Shown: positions 4,069 to 15,650 of the stretch, in pieces
Layout: every line of letters starts with the position of its first letter
Numbering within the stretch: the first letter of the stretch is position 1
NCBI GenBank assembly: GCA_014896295.1
Contig: JADBKR010000008.1
Coordinates: 434,001 to 498,000 of the forward strand
DNA from: Limnochordaceae bacterium
GTDB taxonomy: Bacteria > Bacillota > Limnochordia > Limnochordales > Geochordaceae
DNA length: 64,000 nucleotides
Reading direction: 5' to 3'
Made by a program: the position numbers and the translations under genes
Notes under the pieces: model-generated
Seen by the model: the letters and a program-made list of their open reading frames with translations, nothing else
Told to the model about the DNA's origin: nothing
Databases searched by the model: none

Positions 4069-5316
4069 TCACTGCACCGACAAGAGCGCCGTGCGATCCG
4101 CCTCGGGCACCTTCTCCCGGTTGCGGATCATCTGTTTCAGGATGCGCCGGCCGCCGCGGTCGCCGATCATCACGGCCCCGACCAGGTGCTCTCCCCGAAA
4201 GAAGAGGCGCCGGTACTGCCTCTGTCCCATATCCACCCGCACGACGGACTCCAGGCCCGGGTCGTACTCGGGGGTGAGGCCCAGGACGTACAGGGTCGAG
4301 TCGAACAGCGTACTGGTGTAGCTCGGGACCTCGCGAAGGGGCTGGTTGGCCCCCAGCACGTTGAGCGCCGCCAGCCGCCCGTGCGTCGAAGCGTTGTCCC
4401 ACGTGCCCATGGTGTGGTGGCGCTCCAAGAACGCGTCGAAAAACTCGGCCACGTCGCCCGCGGCGTAGATGCCCGGAATGTTGGTGGCGAGCGTCTCGTC
4501 GGTGCGGACCCCCTTCCCGATCTCGACCCCCGACCCCTGCAACAACTCCGTGGAGAAGCTGAGGCCGAGCCCGCACGCCACGACCTGGGCCTCCAGGGTA
4601 CGGCCGGCGGTGGTCACGACGCCCCTGACCGCCCCGCCCTGCACCACCAGGCTGGCGACCTCCTCCCCGTGGATGACCTCGACGCCGTGGTCGGCAGCGA
4701 TCCGGTCCACGAGCAGCCCACCCTGCTCCTCCAGGACCCGGCGCAGGAAATGGGGCCCCCGCATGAGCCACGTCACCTCGAGCCCGCGCCGGCGTAGCCC
4801 CTCCGTCAGCTCGTACGCGATGTAGCTCCCGCCGACCGTCACCGCACGCCGGGCCCGGGAGATCAGACCCAGGATGTGACGGGTGTCGTCCAGGGTTTGG
4901 AAGTAGACCAGCCCCTCGGGACGCGGCTCGGCGCCGGGCACCCGTAACGGGCTGGGCCTCCCGCCCGTAGCCACGATGAGCGCGTCGAAGGGCAGCACGT
5001 CCTCCCGCTCGCCCGAGGTGTACACGACGCGCTCGGCAGCGTCGACCCTCACGATGCGAGTCGCGAAGTGAATGGCATACCCCATCCGGAGATGGTGCTC
5101 GGGGTCCCGCATGAAAACCCGCTGCTCGGGCAGGTCTCCGCGCAACAGGCGTGGCAGCGCCACGCGATTGTACAGTGGGTACGGCTCCTCAGCGACGACC
5201 TGGACCTCCAGATCGGGCCGCTCCTTGCGCAGCGTCTCGGCTGCCAGCGTGCCCGCCACGCCGTTGCCGGCGATTACGACGCGCCTCAACTCCCGAGAAG
5301 GGCGCGGCTCTCCCAC
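4069..5316 (-). CDS. NAD(P)/FAD-dependent oxidoreductase of the nitrite/rubredoxin reductase type
   Basis: This 415-residue protein has an N-terminal FAD motif (VVIAGNGVAGTLAAETL), the ATGGRPSPLRVPG hinge, an NAD(P) motif (AVTVGGSYIAYELTEGL) and the second FAD motif (GIYAAGDVAEF). It matches the pyr_redox_2 enzymes that serve nitrite reductase, rubredoxin or ferredoxin. It lacks the C-x4-C disulphide of LpdA, so it should be a simple electron transferase. The electron acceptor is not evident; no ferredoxin or rubredoxin gene is adjacent. The GTG start at 5316 is supported by GGGGAGG about 7 bases upstream. It precedes lpdA on the same strand. Confidence 0.85.
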   Translation of the reverse strand: MGEPRPSRELRRVVIAGNGVAGTLAAETLRKERPDLEVQVVAEEPYPLYNRVALPRLLRGDLPEQRVFMRDPEHHLRMGYAIHFATRIVRVDAAERVVYTSGEREDVLPFDALIVATGGRPSPLRVPGAEPRPEGLVYFQTLDDTRHILGLISRARRAVTVGGSYIAYELTEGLRRRGLEVTWLMRGPHFLRRVLEEQGGLLVDRIAADHGVEVIHGEEVASLVVQGGAVRGVVTTAGRTLEAQVVACGLGLSFSTELLQGSGVEIGKGVRTDETLATNIPGIYAAGDVAEFFDAFLERHHTMGTWDNASTHGRLAALNVLGANQPLREVPSYTSTLFDSTLYVLGLTPEYDPGLESVVRVDMGQRQYRRLFFRGEHLVGAVMIGDRGGRRILKQMIRNREKVPEADRTALLSVQ

Positions 5317-5430
5317 CTGGTAACCTCCCCACCCAAGCCAGCCTCGAGCCCCGTATGCCGGGTTGCCTGCAAACGCCCCTTCGATTCGAGAAGGCCGGAG
5401 CGACTCCTCCGGCGTGGGATCCCAAGGACC

Positions 5431-6003
5431 TCACCGGCGCCAGGGTACGTCGGCCACGCCTCCCCGGCGGTTGGCCACGCGGGCCATGACGAACAGCAGG
5501 TCCGACAACCGGTTGAGGTACGCGAGCACCTCGGGACGCACCTTATCCCGGCCCGCGAGGGCCACCACCTGCCGTTCGGCCCGCCGGGCCACCGTGCGGG
5601 CGACGTGCAGGGCGGCGCCGGCGGCCGACCCGCCGGGCAGGATGAACTGGGTGAGCGCAGGCAGCTCCGACTGGAGCGCGTCGATGAGCCTTTCCATCTC
5701 GGCGACCCGGGCGCCGTCCAGGAGTGGCAGCCCCTCGGGCATCTCCTGGCCGCCGTCGACGGCCAGCTCGGCTCCCACGGCGAAGAGGTCCCGCTGGACC
5801 TGCTCCAGCGCGCCGATCACGTCGTCGAGCGCCCCGGCGCTCCGGGCTTGGGCCACGCAAAGCCCCAGGTGCGCGTTGAGCTCGTCGATGCACCCGTACG
5901 CCTCGACCCGCAGGTCGTCCTTGCGCACCCGGCGTCGACCGAGAAGACTCGTCTCCCCGGCATCACCCGTACGGGTGTAGATGCGCGAACCCCCGGCCTT
6001 CAT
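5431..6003 (-). CDS. Cob(I)yrinic acid a,c-diamide adenosyltransferase, PduO type
   Basis: This 190-residue protein begins with the PduO-family signature IYTRTGDAGETSLLGRRRVRKD, continues with YGCIDELNAHLG and carries the C-terminal LNRLSDLLFVMAR helix. It transfers adenosyl from ATP to cob(I)alamin to make the coenzyme B12 form. The ATG at 6003 overlaps the TGA of the upstream HtrA-like gene by four bases (ATGA), so the two are translationally coupled. That linkage to a stress protease is unusual. I saw no cobalamin riboswitch upstream. The same frame reads open far upstream of 6003, but that part is a shadow of the protease gene. Confidence 0.93.
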   Translation of the reverse strand: MKAGGSRIYTRTGDAGETSLLGRRRVRKDDLRVEAYGCIDELNAHLGLCVAQARSAGALDDVIGALEQVQRDLFAVGAELAVDGGQEMPEGLPLLDGARVAEMERLIDALQSELPALTQFILPGGSAAGAALHVARTVARRAERQVVALAGRDKVRPEVLAYLNRLSDLLFVMARVANRRGGVADVPWRR

Positions 6004-6983
6004 CGCCCAGGCGCCACCTCCCCGAGGTGCCCCAGCACCAGGCCGACGCGAAGCAGCCGGCCGGACCGCTCGATCTCCAGCTCGACCCGCTCCCCTGCGG
6101 CCCGCTTTGCGAGCAGGGCGCGCAAGCCGTCGTGGCCTTCGGCCGGCTTGCCGTCGACCGCCCGGATGACGTCCATGGGTTGGATCCCTGCCCGCCAGGC
6201 CGGGCTGCCCTCGACGACCTGGAGCACCAGGGCGCCCAGGCTCCCGTCTTCGAGGTACTGGCTGACCGCCTGGATCCCGAGGTAACCCGCCCCGGCCTCG
6301 CCCGTGCGGCCGAAGCGCACCAGGAGGTCCCTCACCCGGGAGACGGGCACGGCAAAGCCGATCCCCTGGGCGCCGGCGACCATGGCCGTGTTGATTCCGA
6401 CCACCCGCCCGCGCGCGTCGACCAGAGGCCCGCCCGAGTTGCCCGGGTTGATGGACGCGTCGGTCTGGATGAGCTCGTCCATGATCCCTGCCGGAGTCCT
6501 CAAAGCGCGGTGCAGCGCGCTGACCACTCCGGTCGTGACCGTCGCCTGCAGCCCCAGGGGGTTGCCGATGGCGACGACGAGCTGGCCCACGCGCAAGCCT
6601 TCCGAAGAGCCCAGCTGGGCAGCAGGGAAACCCTTGCCCTCGAGCCTGAGCAGCGCCAGGTCGTGCGAAGGGTCGCGCCCCAGCACGCGGGCGGCCACGG
6701 CCCGGCCGTCTTGAAGGACCGCATGGAGCTCGGACGCCCCCGCCACCACGTGATCGTTGGTGACCGCCAGCCCCTCGGGGTCGACGATCACCGCCGACCC
6801 GACGCCCTCCCGCTGCGAGGGCCACGGCCCGTAAAAGGGCTGGGCTTCCGCGCGCGTGGAGATCCGCACCACCGAGGGCCCCACGAGCTTTACCGCCCGC
6901 GTGACCGCCCTCGAGAAGGCGTCCAGGAGATCCTCGTCGCCGGCCGCGTCGTCGCGGCCGCCGGCATCCTCGTCCCAGGCCAT
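6000..6983 (-). CDS. HtrA-like trypsin-type serine protease with PDZ domain, no membrane anchor
   Basis: The 327-residue protein has the HtrA layout: trypsin-like domain (about 30-210) and one PDZ domain (about 225-315). The catalytic triad is present: His78 in TNDHVV, Asp108 in SHDLALL and Ser183 in GNSGGP. Unlike most HtrA proteins it has neither a signal peptide nor a transmembrane helix; the N-terminus is acidic (MAWDEDAGG), so it is probably cytoplasmic. Expression should be under heat-shock control because a perfect CtsR operator lies just downstream of a strong sigma-A promoter. It is the first gene of a unit with the PduO adenosyltransferase. A second, membrane-anchored HtrA is encoded at 14.4 kb. 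Confidence 0.92.
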   Translation of the reverse strand: MAWDEDAGGRDDAAGDEDLLDAFSRAVTRAVKLVGPSVVRISTRAEAQPFYGPWPSQREGVGSAVIVDPEGLAVTNDHVVAGASELHAVLQDGRAVAARVLGRDPSHDLALLRLEGKGFPAAQLGSSEGLRVGQLVVAIGNPLGLQATVTTGVVSALHRALRTPAGIMDELIQTDASINPGNSGGPLVDARGRVVGINTAMVAGAQGIGFAVPVSRVRDLLVRFGRTGEAGAGYLGIQAVSQYLEDGSLGALVLQVVEGSPAWRAGIQPMDVIRAVDGKPAEGHDGLRALLAKRAAGERVELEIERSGRLLRVGLVLGHLGEVAPGR

Positions 6984-7012
6984 CGTTGCATCCCTCTCTT
7001 CCGCGAGCGGAC

Positions 7013-7068
7013 TTTGACCTTTTTTGACCTTTCTGCGGCATTATACAGGCCCGCCCGGGTGGCGTCAA
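7013..7068 (-). promoter_or_regulatory. Sigma-A promoter with a perfect CtsR operator, upstream of the HtrA-like gene
   Basis: Read on the minus strand, TTGACG (7068-7063) and TATAAT (7045-7040) are separated by exactly 17 bases. The direct repeat GGTCAAA-AAA-GGTCAAA (7029-7013) follows at roughly +5 to +21. This matches the class III heat-shock repressor CtsR heptad operator (GGTCAAA-NAN-GGTCAAA) at every position. CtsR bound here would block transcription start. No ctsR gene lies in the window. Confidence 0.85.
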
Positions 7069-7126
7069 ACGCCGGGTCTCCAGGAATTGGGGCGCGCTCC
7101 GTGGAATCCCCGTTCCCCAGATGGGG

Positions 7127-7156
7127 TTGCACGATTCGTCATCGTTACGGCACAAT
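7127..7156 (+). promoter_or_regulatory. Weak candidate promoter for the lipid kinase gene
   Basis: TTGCAC (7127-7132) and CACAAT (7151-7156) are spaced by 18 bases, about 40 bases before the lipid kinase start. Agreement with the -10 consensus is only moderate. Confidence 0.3.
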
Positions 7157-7196
7157 CGGGACATGCTGGCAGTGTCGGCAGGGGTGGCACCGTTGC

Positions 7197-8348
7197 ATGA
7201 AAAGTGAGCTCCTTTTCATCGTCAACCCGGTGGCGGGGCACGGGCGTTCCATGCGGGTGTTCTCGCGCCTCGAGTCCGTCATGGACCAGGTGGCGGGCCT
7301 CAAGCGGCTCGTGTGGCTCACCCGGGGTCCCGGCCACGCGTTGGAGCTGGCCCGCCGGGCAGCGCTCGAAGGTTACGACCGGATCGTGGCCGTGGGCGGG
7401 GACGGCACGGTGCACGAGGCGATCAACGGCCTGATGGGTTTGAAACCCGAGATTCTCAACCGGGTCAGCTTCGGAGTGGTGCCGGCCGGCTCGGGCAACG
7501 ACTTCTCCCGCAACCTCGGCATCCCCACCGACGTGGGCGCCCTTGCTACGCTGCTCGCCAGCGGGTCCAGCGGGCTGGCCGACGTGGGCACGGTCAACGG
7601 GCACTACTTCGCCAACGTGGCCGGCGTTGGCTTCGACGCCGAGGTGGCCCGCATGGCCAACCGGATGCCCAAGCTGGTGCCCGGGACGCTCACCTACGTG
7701 ACGTGTGCCCTCGCACAGCTGGCCGTCTACCGCAACGCCGCCGTGCGCCTCACCCTCGACGGGCAGGTGCTGGAGCGGCGGGCCCTGCTCGTCGCGGTGG
7801 GAAACGGGGCCCGCTACGCCGGAGGCATGACCATCTGCCCGGGAGCACGCATGGACGACGGCGTGTTCCGGGTGGTGGTGGCCGGCGACCTCTCCCGCGC
7901 CCAGGTGCTCCGGGTGCTCCCCCAGGTATTTCCCGGGCGGCACGTCGCGCATCCCCTGGTGGAGGTATGGGACGCCCGAGAGGTGCACGTGGAGGCCGAC
8001 CGCCCCCTTTCCATCCAGGCCGACGGCGAGGTGATCGGCGCCGTTCCGGCGACCTTCCGCCTGCTGCCGAGGGCTCTCGCCGTGATCGGGCTGCGTACTC
8101 CCGAGCCCGGCGGGGCTGACGCGGAGCTCCGAGAGGCCGAGGGTGCCCGCGAGCCGGCGCCGGAAACGGAGGCTTCGGCTCCTGCCGCGGATCCGGCAGG
8201 TCCGAGGGCCAGGCGTGAGCCTGCAAGGCGCGAGCCGGCCTCCGAATCGGGGCGCAAGCCGGCCCTCCCGCAGGCAAGCGACGAGGATTCGCTGCCCGGG
8301 GGCGGCAACGGGTATTTCGAACGGCGCCGCCGGCGTGACAGCGCGTGA
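7197..8348 (+). CDS. Diacylglycerol kinase family lipid kinase (YegS/DgkB type)
   Basis: The 383-residue protein has the lipid kinase catalytic fold. It begins LLFIVNPVAGHGRS, has the ATP-binding AVGGDGTVHEAING (GGDGT at 67-71) and the conserved PAGSGNDFSRNLG at about 98-110. The C-terminal beta domain includes DGVFRVVVAG. It phosphorylates diacylglycerol or a related lipid at the membrane face. Residues after about 300 form an Ala/Pro/Arg/Glu-rich, probably disordered tail longer than usual for the family. The ATG at 7197 has a GGGGTGG about 8 bases upstream. It is divergent from the htrA-pduO unit and is followed by the DUF2953 gene on the same strand. Confidence 0.9.
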   Translation: MKSELLFIVNPVAGHGRSMRVFSRLESVMDQVAGLKRLVWLTRGPGHALELARRAALEGYDRIVAVGGDGTVHEAINGLMGLKPEILNRVSFGVVPAGSGNDFSRNLGIPTDVGALATLLASGSSGLADVGTVNGHYFANVAGVGFDAEVARMANRMPKLVPGTLTYVTCALAQLAVYRNAAVRLTLDGQVLERRALLVAVGNGARYAGGMTICPGARMDDGVFRVVVAGDLSRAQVLRVLPQVFPGRHVAHPLVEVWDAREVHVEADRPLSIQADGEVIGAVPATFRLLPRALAVIGLRTPEPGGADAELREAEGAREPAPETEASAPAADPAGPRARREPARREPASESGRKPALPQASDEDSLPGGGNGYFERRRRRDSA

Positions 8349-10528: not shown

Positions 10529-10628
10529 GCCGTCGGTACCCCTTTCGCGCGGGCGTCCTGGCACTCCGGGCACCCCCACTTCATAGCTTTTCGTGAACGC
10601 ATCCGCCAGCAGCGAGGAGGTTGAGGCC

Positions 10629-11549
10629 TTGTACCAGGCCAACCTGCAACGCCCTCCCGGCGGCCAACCCTGTCCCCATTGCCCCGACACGGCTCCCGGT
10701 CAAACCGCGTCGGCTGCCGACGTGTGGGGAGCTTACGCGGGAGGCCGCGTGCCGGCCACGTGCCCGCCCGGCTTCCAGGGACGCTACACGGTCCAGCCGG
10801 GGGACACCATGTGGCTCATCGCCCAGCGCCTGGGCGTCAACATCGACGCCCTGATCGCCGCCAACCCCCACATCCCCAATCCAGCCGCCCTCTTCCCCGG
10901 AGACGTGCTGTGCGTCCCCGGAGCGCCGCCGCGGCCGCCCTGCCGCGTGCCGGCCGGTTGTCCGACCGGGTTCGTCCGTTACACGGTGGTCGCCGGCGAT
11001 ACCATGTTCAGCCTGGCCCGCCGGTTCGGCATCCCGCTCAGCCAGCTCATCGCCGTCAACCCGCACATCCCCGATCCGTCGCTCCTGTTCCCGTGCGACG
11101 TGCTCTGCGTCCCGGCGGCGGTCAGCTGCCCGCCGGGCTTCCGGACCTACACGGTCCAGCCGGGGGACAGCATGTTCAGCATCGCGCGGCGATTCGGCAT
11201 CACGCTGGACGCGCTCATCGCGGCCAACCCGCAGATCCCCAACCCCAACGTGCTGTTCCCGGGAGACGTGCTTTGCGTCCCGCAAGCCCCTGCATGCCCG
11301 CCGGGCTCTCAAGTCTACACGGTGCGACCGGGCGACACGATGTTCACCATCGCGCAGCGCTTCGGCGTGAGCCTGGACGCGCTGATCGCGGCCAACCCGC
11401 AAATCCCCAATCCGGCGCAGATCTTCGCCGGCGACGTCCTGTGCATCCCGCCGTCGTCCATCTCCGGCGCGGCGGCGCCGTCCGGTGCTCCCGAGACGGC
11501 GGGAGAGGAGTCGCCCTCCCGCTCCCAGGCCACCGATCCGGCCAGCTGA
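10629..11549 (+). CDS. Cysteine-rich protein with four LysM domains (probable spore coat/peptidoglycan binding)
   Basis: About 306 residues hold four nearly identical LysM units, each beginning YTVQPGDTM, YTVVAGDTM, YTVQPGDSM or YTVRPGDTM and ending in a conserved DVLC(V/I)P. They are separated by Cys/Pro-rich linkers such as CPPGF. LysM binds the glycan of peptidoglycan. The regular cysteines suggest disulphide cross-linking, as in spore coat or exosporium proteins. No signal peptide is visible, which fits coat proteins made in the mother cell. I chose the TTG at 10629 because GGAGG (10616-10620) lies 8 bases upstream; a GTG at 10593 has no such site. A strong hairpin terminator follows. The repeats are also visible at DNA level (period about 150-170 bases). 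Confidence 0.85.
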   Translation: MYQANLQRPPGGQPCPHCPDTAPGQTASAADVWGAYAGGRVPATCPPGFQGRYTVQPGDTMWLIAQRLGVNIDALIAANPHIPNPAALFPGDVLCVPGAPPRPPCRVPAGCPTGFVRYTVVAGDTMFSLARRFGIPLSQLIAVNPHIPDPSLLFPCDVLCVPAAVSCPPGFRTYTVQPGDSMFSIARRFGITLDALIAANPQIPNPNVLFPGDVLCVPQAPACPPGSQVYTVRPGDTMFTIAQRFGVSLDALIAANPQIPNPAQIFAGDVLCIPPSSISGAAAPSGAPETAGEESPSRSQATDPAS

Positions 11550-14420: not shown

Positions 14421-15650
14421 ATGGAGCGATGGAAGCGGTCGGCCCGGTGGCGCCGGCTCTCCGGGCTCGCGCTGCTGGCGATGCTCAGTTTCCTGGCAGG
14501 AGCGTTCCTGACCACCAACGTGCTGGACGTGCACCTGTGGGCGCAGAGTTCGCCTGCGCCTCCGGTCGCGCCGGGCGCATCTGCGCCGGCTTCGGATGCC
14601 GTTCTGGCGCAGGCGCCGGGTATCGGTAACCCCTATCTGCTCGCGGACATCGCCGAGCAGGTGAGCCCGGCGGTCGTCTTCGTGCAGGCCAAGTTCCCGA
14701 AGCCCCAGGTCGTGCGGGATCCGTTCTTCGAGTTCTGGTTCGGGCCCATGCCCGCCCCGCAGGCGCCGGTCAGCGCCGGAACGGGGTTCATCATCTCCGA
14801 GGACGGTTACATCCTGACCAACCAGCACGTCGTGGGCAGCGTCGGGGATAACCAGAAGCTCACCGTGAAGTTGGACGTCCCCAACTTCACGGCGGAGGTG
14901 CCGGCCAAGCTGGTCGGCTCGAGCTTCAGCCTCGACCTGGCGGTGCTCAAGATCGACAAGCCCAAGGGGCTCGATCGGCTCCCGGTCGTCAAGCTCGGGG
15001 ACTCGGACAAGACCCGCCCCGGGGAGTGGGTCATCGCCATCGGCAACCCCTACGGCGAGCAGCTGGAGCACACCGTGACGGTGGGCGTGGTGAGCGCCAA
15101 GGGTCGCCAGATCGAGGTACCCGACCAGGAAGCCGGCCGGATGCGGCGCTACGACAACCTGCTGCAGACCGACGCCGCCATCAACCCCGGCAATTCGGGC
15201 GGCCCGCTGGTCAACATCCGGGGTGAGGTCATCGGCATCAACACGGCCATCAACGCGCAGGGGCAAAACATCGGCTTCGCGATCCCCATCAACGCGGCCA
15301 AGAAGGTGCTCAACGACCTCATCACCCGGGGCGGCATCCAGGTGGTACGCCCGTACATGGGCGTCGGCCTGGAGGACCTGACCCCGCGGATGGCCGGCTA
15401 CCTGGGGCTGCCCGATACCGACGGCGCGCTGGTCAACCAGGTGGAGCCGGGATCGCCGGCGGACAAGGCAGGGCTCAAGGTCTACGACGTCATCCGGCGC
15501 ATGGGCCAGGCGCGTATCCGGTCTGCCAACGACGTCATCTCGGAACTCGGCAAGTACAAGCCCAAGCAGCAGGTCCCCTTGCAGGTGTGGCGGGACGGGC
15601 GTACGGTCACCCTGGTGGTCGAGCTCGGCGAACGCACCGTTCAGGATTGA
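14421..15650 (+). CDS. Membrane-anchored HtrA/DegP-type serine protease
   Basis: The 409-residue protein has an N-terminal membrane anchor (about 12-34), an Ala/Pro-rich linker and a trypsin-like domain with TNQHVV (His), SLDLAVLK (Asp) and GNSGGP (Ser). One C-terminal PDZ domain follows (about 305-400, PYMGVGLEDLTPRMAGYLG). It would degrade or refold damaged proteins outside the cytoplasmic membrane. The ATG at 14421 has AGAGGGGG about 8 bases upstream; an earlier ATG at 14382 falls in a probable -10 box. It is followed 12 bases later by tilS, so tilS may be read from the same transcript. It lacks the CtsR site found at the other htrA-like gene. Confidence 0.93.
   Translation: MERWKRSARWRRLSGLALLAMLSFLAGAFLTTNVLDVHLWAQSSPAPPVAPGASAPASDAVLAQAPGIGNPYLLADIAEQVSPAVVFVQAKFPKPQVVRDPFFEFWFGPMPAPQAPVSAGTGFIISEDGYILTNQHVVGSVGDNQKLTVKLDVPNFTAEVPAKLVGSSFSLDLAVLKIDKPKGLDRLPVVKLGDSDKTRPGEWVIAIGNPYGEQLEHTVTVGVVSAKGRQIEVPDQEAGRMRRYDNLLQTDAAINPGNSGGPLVNIRGEVIGINTAINAQGQNIGFAIPINAAKKVLNDLITRGGIQVVRPYMGVGLEDLTPRMAGYLGLPDTDGALVNQVEPGSPADKAGLKVYDVIRRMGQARIRSANDVISELGKYKPKQQVPLQVWRDGRTVTLVVELGERTVQD

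Follow-up and report, generated by a model that had tools for sequence, protein, structure and literature searches.

The window, the whole 64,000-nt stretch of DNA that we analysed, carries on its minus strand an htrA gene (6000..6983, with an ATG start at 6983) for an S1C serine protease of 327 aa, in which Pfam, alignment and hydropathy place a trypsin-like domain and one PDZ domain and find neither a signal peptide nor an anchor. Upstream of it, on the same strand, lies a direct repeat, GGTCAAA-AAA-GGTCAAA (7013..7029; half sites at 7029-7023 and 7019-7013), which in a pattern search has 0 mismatches to the CtsR operator, a tandem A/GGTCAAA N3 A/GGTCAAA. The repeat stands 46 bases upstream of htrA and 10 bases downstream of a TATAAT -10 box (7040..7045, minus strand), which a 17-base spacer separates from a TTGACG -35 box (7063..7068, minus strand); a probable ribosome binding site, GAGAGGGA, occupies 6991..6998 (minus strand). 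TTGACG-17-TATAAT is the sole promoter-like site that the promoter search returned in 5200-7250, where shuffles give 0.1, and every aligned relative also has TTGAC ahead of its htrA site. Assuming a transcription start some 7 bases beyond the -10 box, near 7033, the repeat would occupy about +5 to +21, overlying the initiation region of a sigma-A type promoter. A preliminary description of this DNA had reported a perfect CtsR direct repeat, a consensus promoter and this placement of one relative to the other; the repeat is indeed perfect, the promoter is near-consensus, and the coordinates and layout are right given the assumed start. Two neighbours complete the locus: a gene for a PduO-type cob(I)yrinic acid a,c-diamide adenosyltransferase (5431..6003, minus strand), whose start overlaps the htrA stop in an ATGA (6003-6000), and a divergent gene for a YegS/BmrU-type lipid (diacylglycerol) kinase (7197..8348, plus strand), which lies outside the predicted CtsR-controlled unit.

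In Bacillus subtilis, CtsR binds A/GGTCAAA NAN A/GGTCAAA over the transcription start or the -35/-10 boxes and leaves the DNA on heat (PMC12634643). The preliminary description had made its reading depend on a ctsR gene in the same genome, and one is present (G000:C7:492799-493011), in the gene order ctsR, mcsA, mcsB, clpC. The encoded protein has both the N- and the C-terminal Pfam domain of CtsR and a glycine-rich RGGGG stretch, which we take to be the counterpart of the thermosensor residues of Bacillus subtilis CtsR. In that species, the glycine-rich stretch has been identified as the thermosensor (PMC5506225). The ctsR promoter repeats the layout of the htrA promoter, with GATAAT, 10 bases and then GGTCAAAAAAGGTCAGA, a one-mismatch site, and we predict that the operon is autoregulated.

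Pattern searches across the 2.89-Mb genome, which the preliminary description had proposed as a check, returned exactly one perfect site, that of htrA, and one single-mismatch site, that of the ctsR promoter. These are the two best in the genome; no other site with at most one mismatch was found, and matches with two mismatches number five, close to what the reversed-pattern control yields, none of them with a visible promoter. The upstream regions of clpP in five genomes with an anchorless htrA, including the present one, hold no CtsR site, so the predicted regulon comprises two operons, and clpP, previously listed among the usual CtsR targets, does not carry over to this genome. We confidently predict from the sites that the CtsR regulon here consists of ctsR-mcsA-mcsB-clpC and htrA-adenosyltransferase. 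Each genome examined also has at least two CIRCE (HrcA) sites, so an HrcA regulon is present; none of these sites falls in the region of the window.

The htrA site is well conserved in relatives. All four genomes of the family (G000, its conspecific G041, G001 and G002) have a perfect site before htrA. Between genera of the family, the operator is 94-100% identical while the 50-base flanks are 28-42% identical (about 40% upstream of the promoter and about 30% downstream), a pattern expected from selection acting on the operator. The htrA orthologues of family f3 (G004 and G007), 50-53% identical, carry GGTCAAGGAAGGTCAGG, and the ctsR sites have also drifted, to GGTCAGGAAAGGTCAGT; in family f4, G010 has GGTCAGATTTGGTCAGA at htrA and GGTCAGGGAAGGTCAAT at ctsR. 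The drift of the htrA sites in both families is thus comparable to that of their ctsR sites. G005 has only a degraded form at the operator position (CATCAGGAATAGTCAAT; L076, upstream of 3901), which looks like a decaying CtsR site. The CtsR-htrA link is not universal, even within the order: anchorless htrA is absent from six of its genomes, and among the matches of family f2 and G008 there is no anchorless htrA, nor does any of their anchored htrA genes have a comparable site.

Beyond the class, we screened about 400 genomes of the phylum with a profile built from the anchorless proteins, and further members turned up in two places only: the genus g35, represented by four genomes (2.8-3.0 Mb), and G166. 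The g35 htrA promoter combines TTGACC and TAGAAT with, 9 bases further on, CGTCAGTGATAGTCAAA, CGTCAATGATGGTCAAA or TGTCAACGATGGTCAAA, the operator also being written CGTCARTGATRGTCAAA or TGTCAACGATGGTCAAA, and the g35 ctsR genes have the same arrangement with A/GGTCAAAGATGGTCAAA or sites close to it. The anchorless HtrA of G166 (L247) has a weak upstream match, CGTCAAAAAACAGCAAA, which, read by eye, follows a poor -10 candidate at a distance of about 17 bases. The distance from -10 box to operator is nearly always 9-11 bases, as it is at 10 of the 10 sites of the family, f3, f4 and g35; by sequence, the htrA site recurs with this fixed spacing in four families that belong to two classes. The earlier proposal that an anchorless HtrA is a likely member of the CtsR regulon thus gains from a conservation that extends across the family, the order and one genus outside the class.

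We also applied a matrix trained only on 18 ctsR operators (13 of them different) to the 250-base regions that precede the anchorless htrA genes. In every region the score exceeded those of all 4,000 background windows drawn from the present window. The sites of anchorless htrA genes reached 14.4-32.8, compared with at most 13.2 at 42 anchored htrA genes from the class, paralogues in the same genomes included, and the best matches all pointed in the htrA direction. When each region was itself shuffled with its dinucleotides kept, the observed score was attained in 0-3 of 2,000 cases for nine regions, and in 35 and 28 of 2,000 for G005 and G166; these two were therefore left out of the confirmed cases, and their htrA sites count as weak candidates. 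A chance repeat near the promoter, with a CtsR that does not act on htrA, is in light of these results very improbable. A match with up to three mismatches is expected 1.5 times in the window, where the operator is the only one; however, a perfect match is expected 0.0025 times in the whole genome (computed at the window's G+C content of 70.5%), the spacing from the -10 box is held across the four families, and the site is absent from anchored htrA genes.

The neighbouring genes offer another candidate purpose for the operator. TIGR00636 identifies the adenosyltransferase as PduO-type (195 bits, against a cut-off of 108). Its gene follows htrA in the family, with the partner read directly in G000, G001 and G002, and the ATGA overlap is present in those three genomes, suggesting that the two genes are probably co-transcribed and translationally coupled in the family. 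Heat induction of the adenosyltransferase, which we infer from the overlap, is the weakest part of the proposal. Because htrA has other neighbours in f3, f4 and g35, the cobalamin link is local to the present family; the operon partner named in the preliminary description therefore stands as far as gene order and overlap go, but as a partner conserved only within the family. If CtsR bound mainly for the sake of this cobalamin gene or of the lipid kinase, which is divergent from htrA in G000, G001 and G002, its effect on htrA would be incidental. We give this little credence, since G004, G007, G010 and g35 keep the site at htrA without these neighbours, and the site always lies over the start region of the htrA promoter, in the htrA direction. 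In f3 (G007, L074 3795-6193), genes resembling an HD-type phosphohydrolase and a sugar kinase come after htrA instead of an adenosyltransferase. Elsewhere in the window, 10593-11549 (plus strand) encodes a protein of repeated YTVQPGDTM-type (LysM-like) units.

The protease itself has the features of the HtrA type and an intact triad. Trypsin_2 matches with E=2.3e-37, PDZ_6 and PDZ_2 match within residues 233-313, giving at least one PDZ domain, and the His-Asp-Ser triad (H78, D108, S183) is invariant in the alignment. The sequence aligns with DegP-like solved structures, and the HtrA fold is defined here by these Pfam and PDB sequence matches; in NCBIfam the best score, 279 bits to degP_htrA_DO, lies below the cut-off of 416 for a named HtrA/DegP equivalog. 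As the preliminary description had proposed, the protein is anchorless: no hydrophobic segment was found even when the frame was extended to the upstream stop, and a cytoplasmic location is predicted. The maximum 19-residue hydropathy is -1.4 to 0.6 in the anchorless members and above 2 in nearly all of the anchored relatives sampled. Among the matches listed, most of which were distant anchored HtrA proteins, anchorless ones with an N-terminal D-A-Y/F-S start also occur in several other phyla, and in the tree a branch supported at 91/85 has all anchorless forms on the same side.

An otherwise ordinary envelope-stress HtrA with a swapped regulator, exported by an unrecognised route, would also account for a genuine operator, and Bacillota HtrA proteins are usually membrane anchored and act outside the cell (PMC8336468, PMC10633939). 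We regard export as highly unlikely, because no member shows a hydrophobic stretch up to its upstream stop, the anchorless forms cluster in the tree, and two further HtrA proteins of the same genome do score as anchored. Recent truncation of an anchored HtrA is ruled out by the anchorless forms in other phyla and the tree grouping. The window contains a second HtrA (14421-15650, plus strand), which has an N-terminal hydrophobic segment, is 43% identical to the anchorless one and has no CtsR site.

Taken together, these observations make it highly likely that the 17-base repeat is a working CtsR operator and that heat or protein stress derepresses a cytoplasmic htrA that is made together with ClpC. 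At normal temperature, CtsR would sit on the DNA just downstream of the -10 box and block initiation at the htrA promoter as a roadblock (about +5 to +21), in parallel with repression of the promoter of its own operon, ctsR-mcsA-mcsB-clpC. Under heat or protein stress, CtsR would come off the DNA, and the derepressed htrA gene would yield an ATP-independent HtrA/Deg protease that would be active in the cytoplasm alongside ClpC. The regulon would then pair an ATP-driven unfoldase with an ATP-independent protease. The recurrence of the site at the same promoter spot in several distant relatives argues that CtsR very probably controls the anchorless HtrA in this deep-branching group.

The predicted regulon resembles the class III regulon of Bacillus subtilis (ctsR-mcsA-mcsB-clpC, clpE, clpP) in having a ctsR-mcsA-mcsB-clpC operon with its own operator, and shares with the CtsR regulon of that species the same heptanucleotide tandem repeat, placed where a sigma-A type promoter starts transcription. 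In contrast, the site here belongs to a cytoplasmic htrA (with the adenosyltransferase), whereas clpP has none. The targets reported for CtsR are clp genes, joined in some species by groESL or the gene of a small heat-shock protein (PMC3842655, PMC10516426). Lactobacillus plantarum hsp1, the gene of a small heat-shock protein, is likewise a CtsR target outside the clp genes (PMC3842655), although its product is a chaperone in a lactic acid bacterium and unrelated to this HtrA. The HtrA proteins studied in Bacillota are membrane-anchored or surface-acting and under CssRS or CiaRH (PMC8336468, PMC10633939, PMC10516426). The protease described here shares the S1C trypsin-like domain and the PDZ domain with HtrA/HtrB of Bacillus subtilis and HtrA of Streptococcus pneumoniae, but it lacks their anchor or surface location and has a CtsR site in place of CssRS or CiaRH. 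Further counterparts are the anchorless DAYS-motif HtrA proteins of Chloroflexota, Acidobacteriota, Myxococcota, Armatimonadota and Vulcanimicrobiota, which likewise have D-A-Y/F-S or a close variant and group with it in the tree; upstream of their genes, among the matches listed, there is no comparable CtsR site. In open-access papers, we found none linking CtsR to htrA, and none naming CtsR together with Limnochordia or Thermaerobacter.

In the usual view, CtsR is the switch of the Clp system and HtrA an envelope-stress protease under other regulators. Here, an HtrA-type protease seems to have given up its anchor and become part of the cytoplasmic heat-shock regulon. Bacillota contain two subgroups of anchorless HtrA, both with CtsR-like sites, and the link would thus be old or gained twice. 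We lean, with some reserve, towards a wider reading in which deep-branching Bacillota have a cytoplasmic, ATP-independent HtrA as a fixed member of their CtsR regulon, either older than the split between the order and g35 or recruited twice, and paired with the ATP-driven Clp machines in place of extra clp genes. Regulon predictions for deep-branching Bacillota that are limited to clp genes would miss the CtsR-htrA link. The link raises two testable questions, namely which substrates a cytoplasmic HtrA degrades and whether it and ClpCP share tasks in thermophilic bacteria. A bench-testable prediction for cultivated thermophiles also follows; within the Geochordaceae, Geochorda and Carboxydochorda have growth optima of 65 and 55 degrees.

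Looser CtsR sites across the order were not accepted as further targets, as they are mostly G+C-rich matches that lie within genes or have no -10 box. A possible exception is a site in family f3 (L179, G007:C14:30603-30618), where TATAAT is followed by 6 bases and GGTCAGGGCGGGTCAGA; it precedes a FolD-like protein starting MAATILDGKALAQARRAQI, which may be a further CtsR target in that family. In addition, G010:C13:2942-2957 reads GGTCAGGAAAGGTCAG, 16 bases identical to the ctsR site of G004 and G007.
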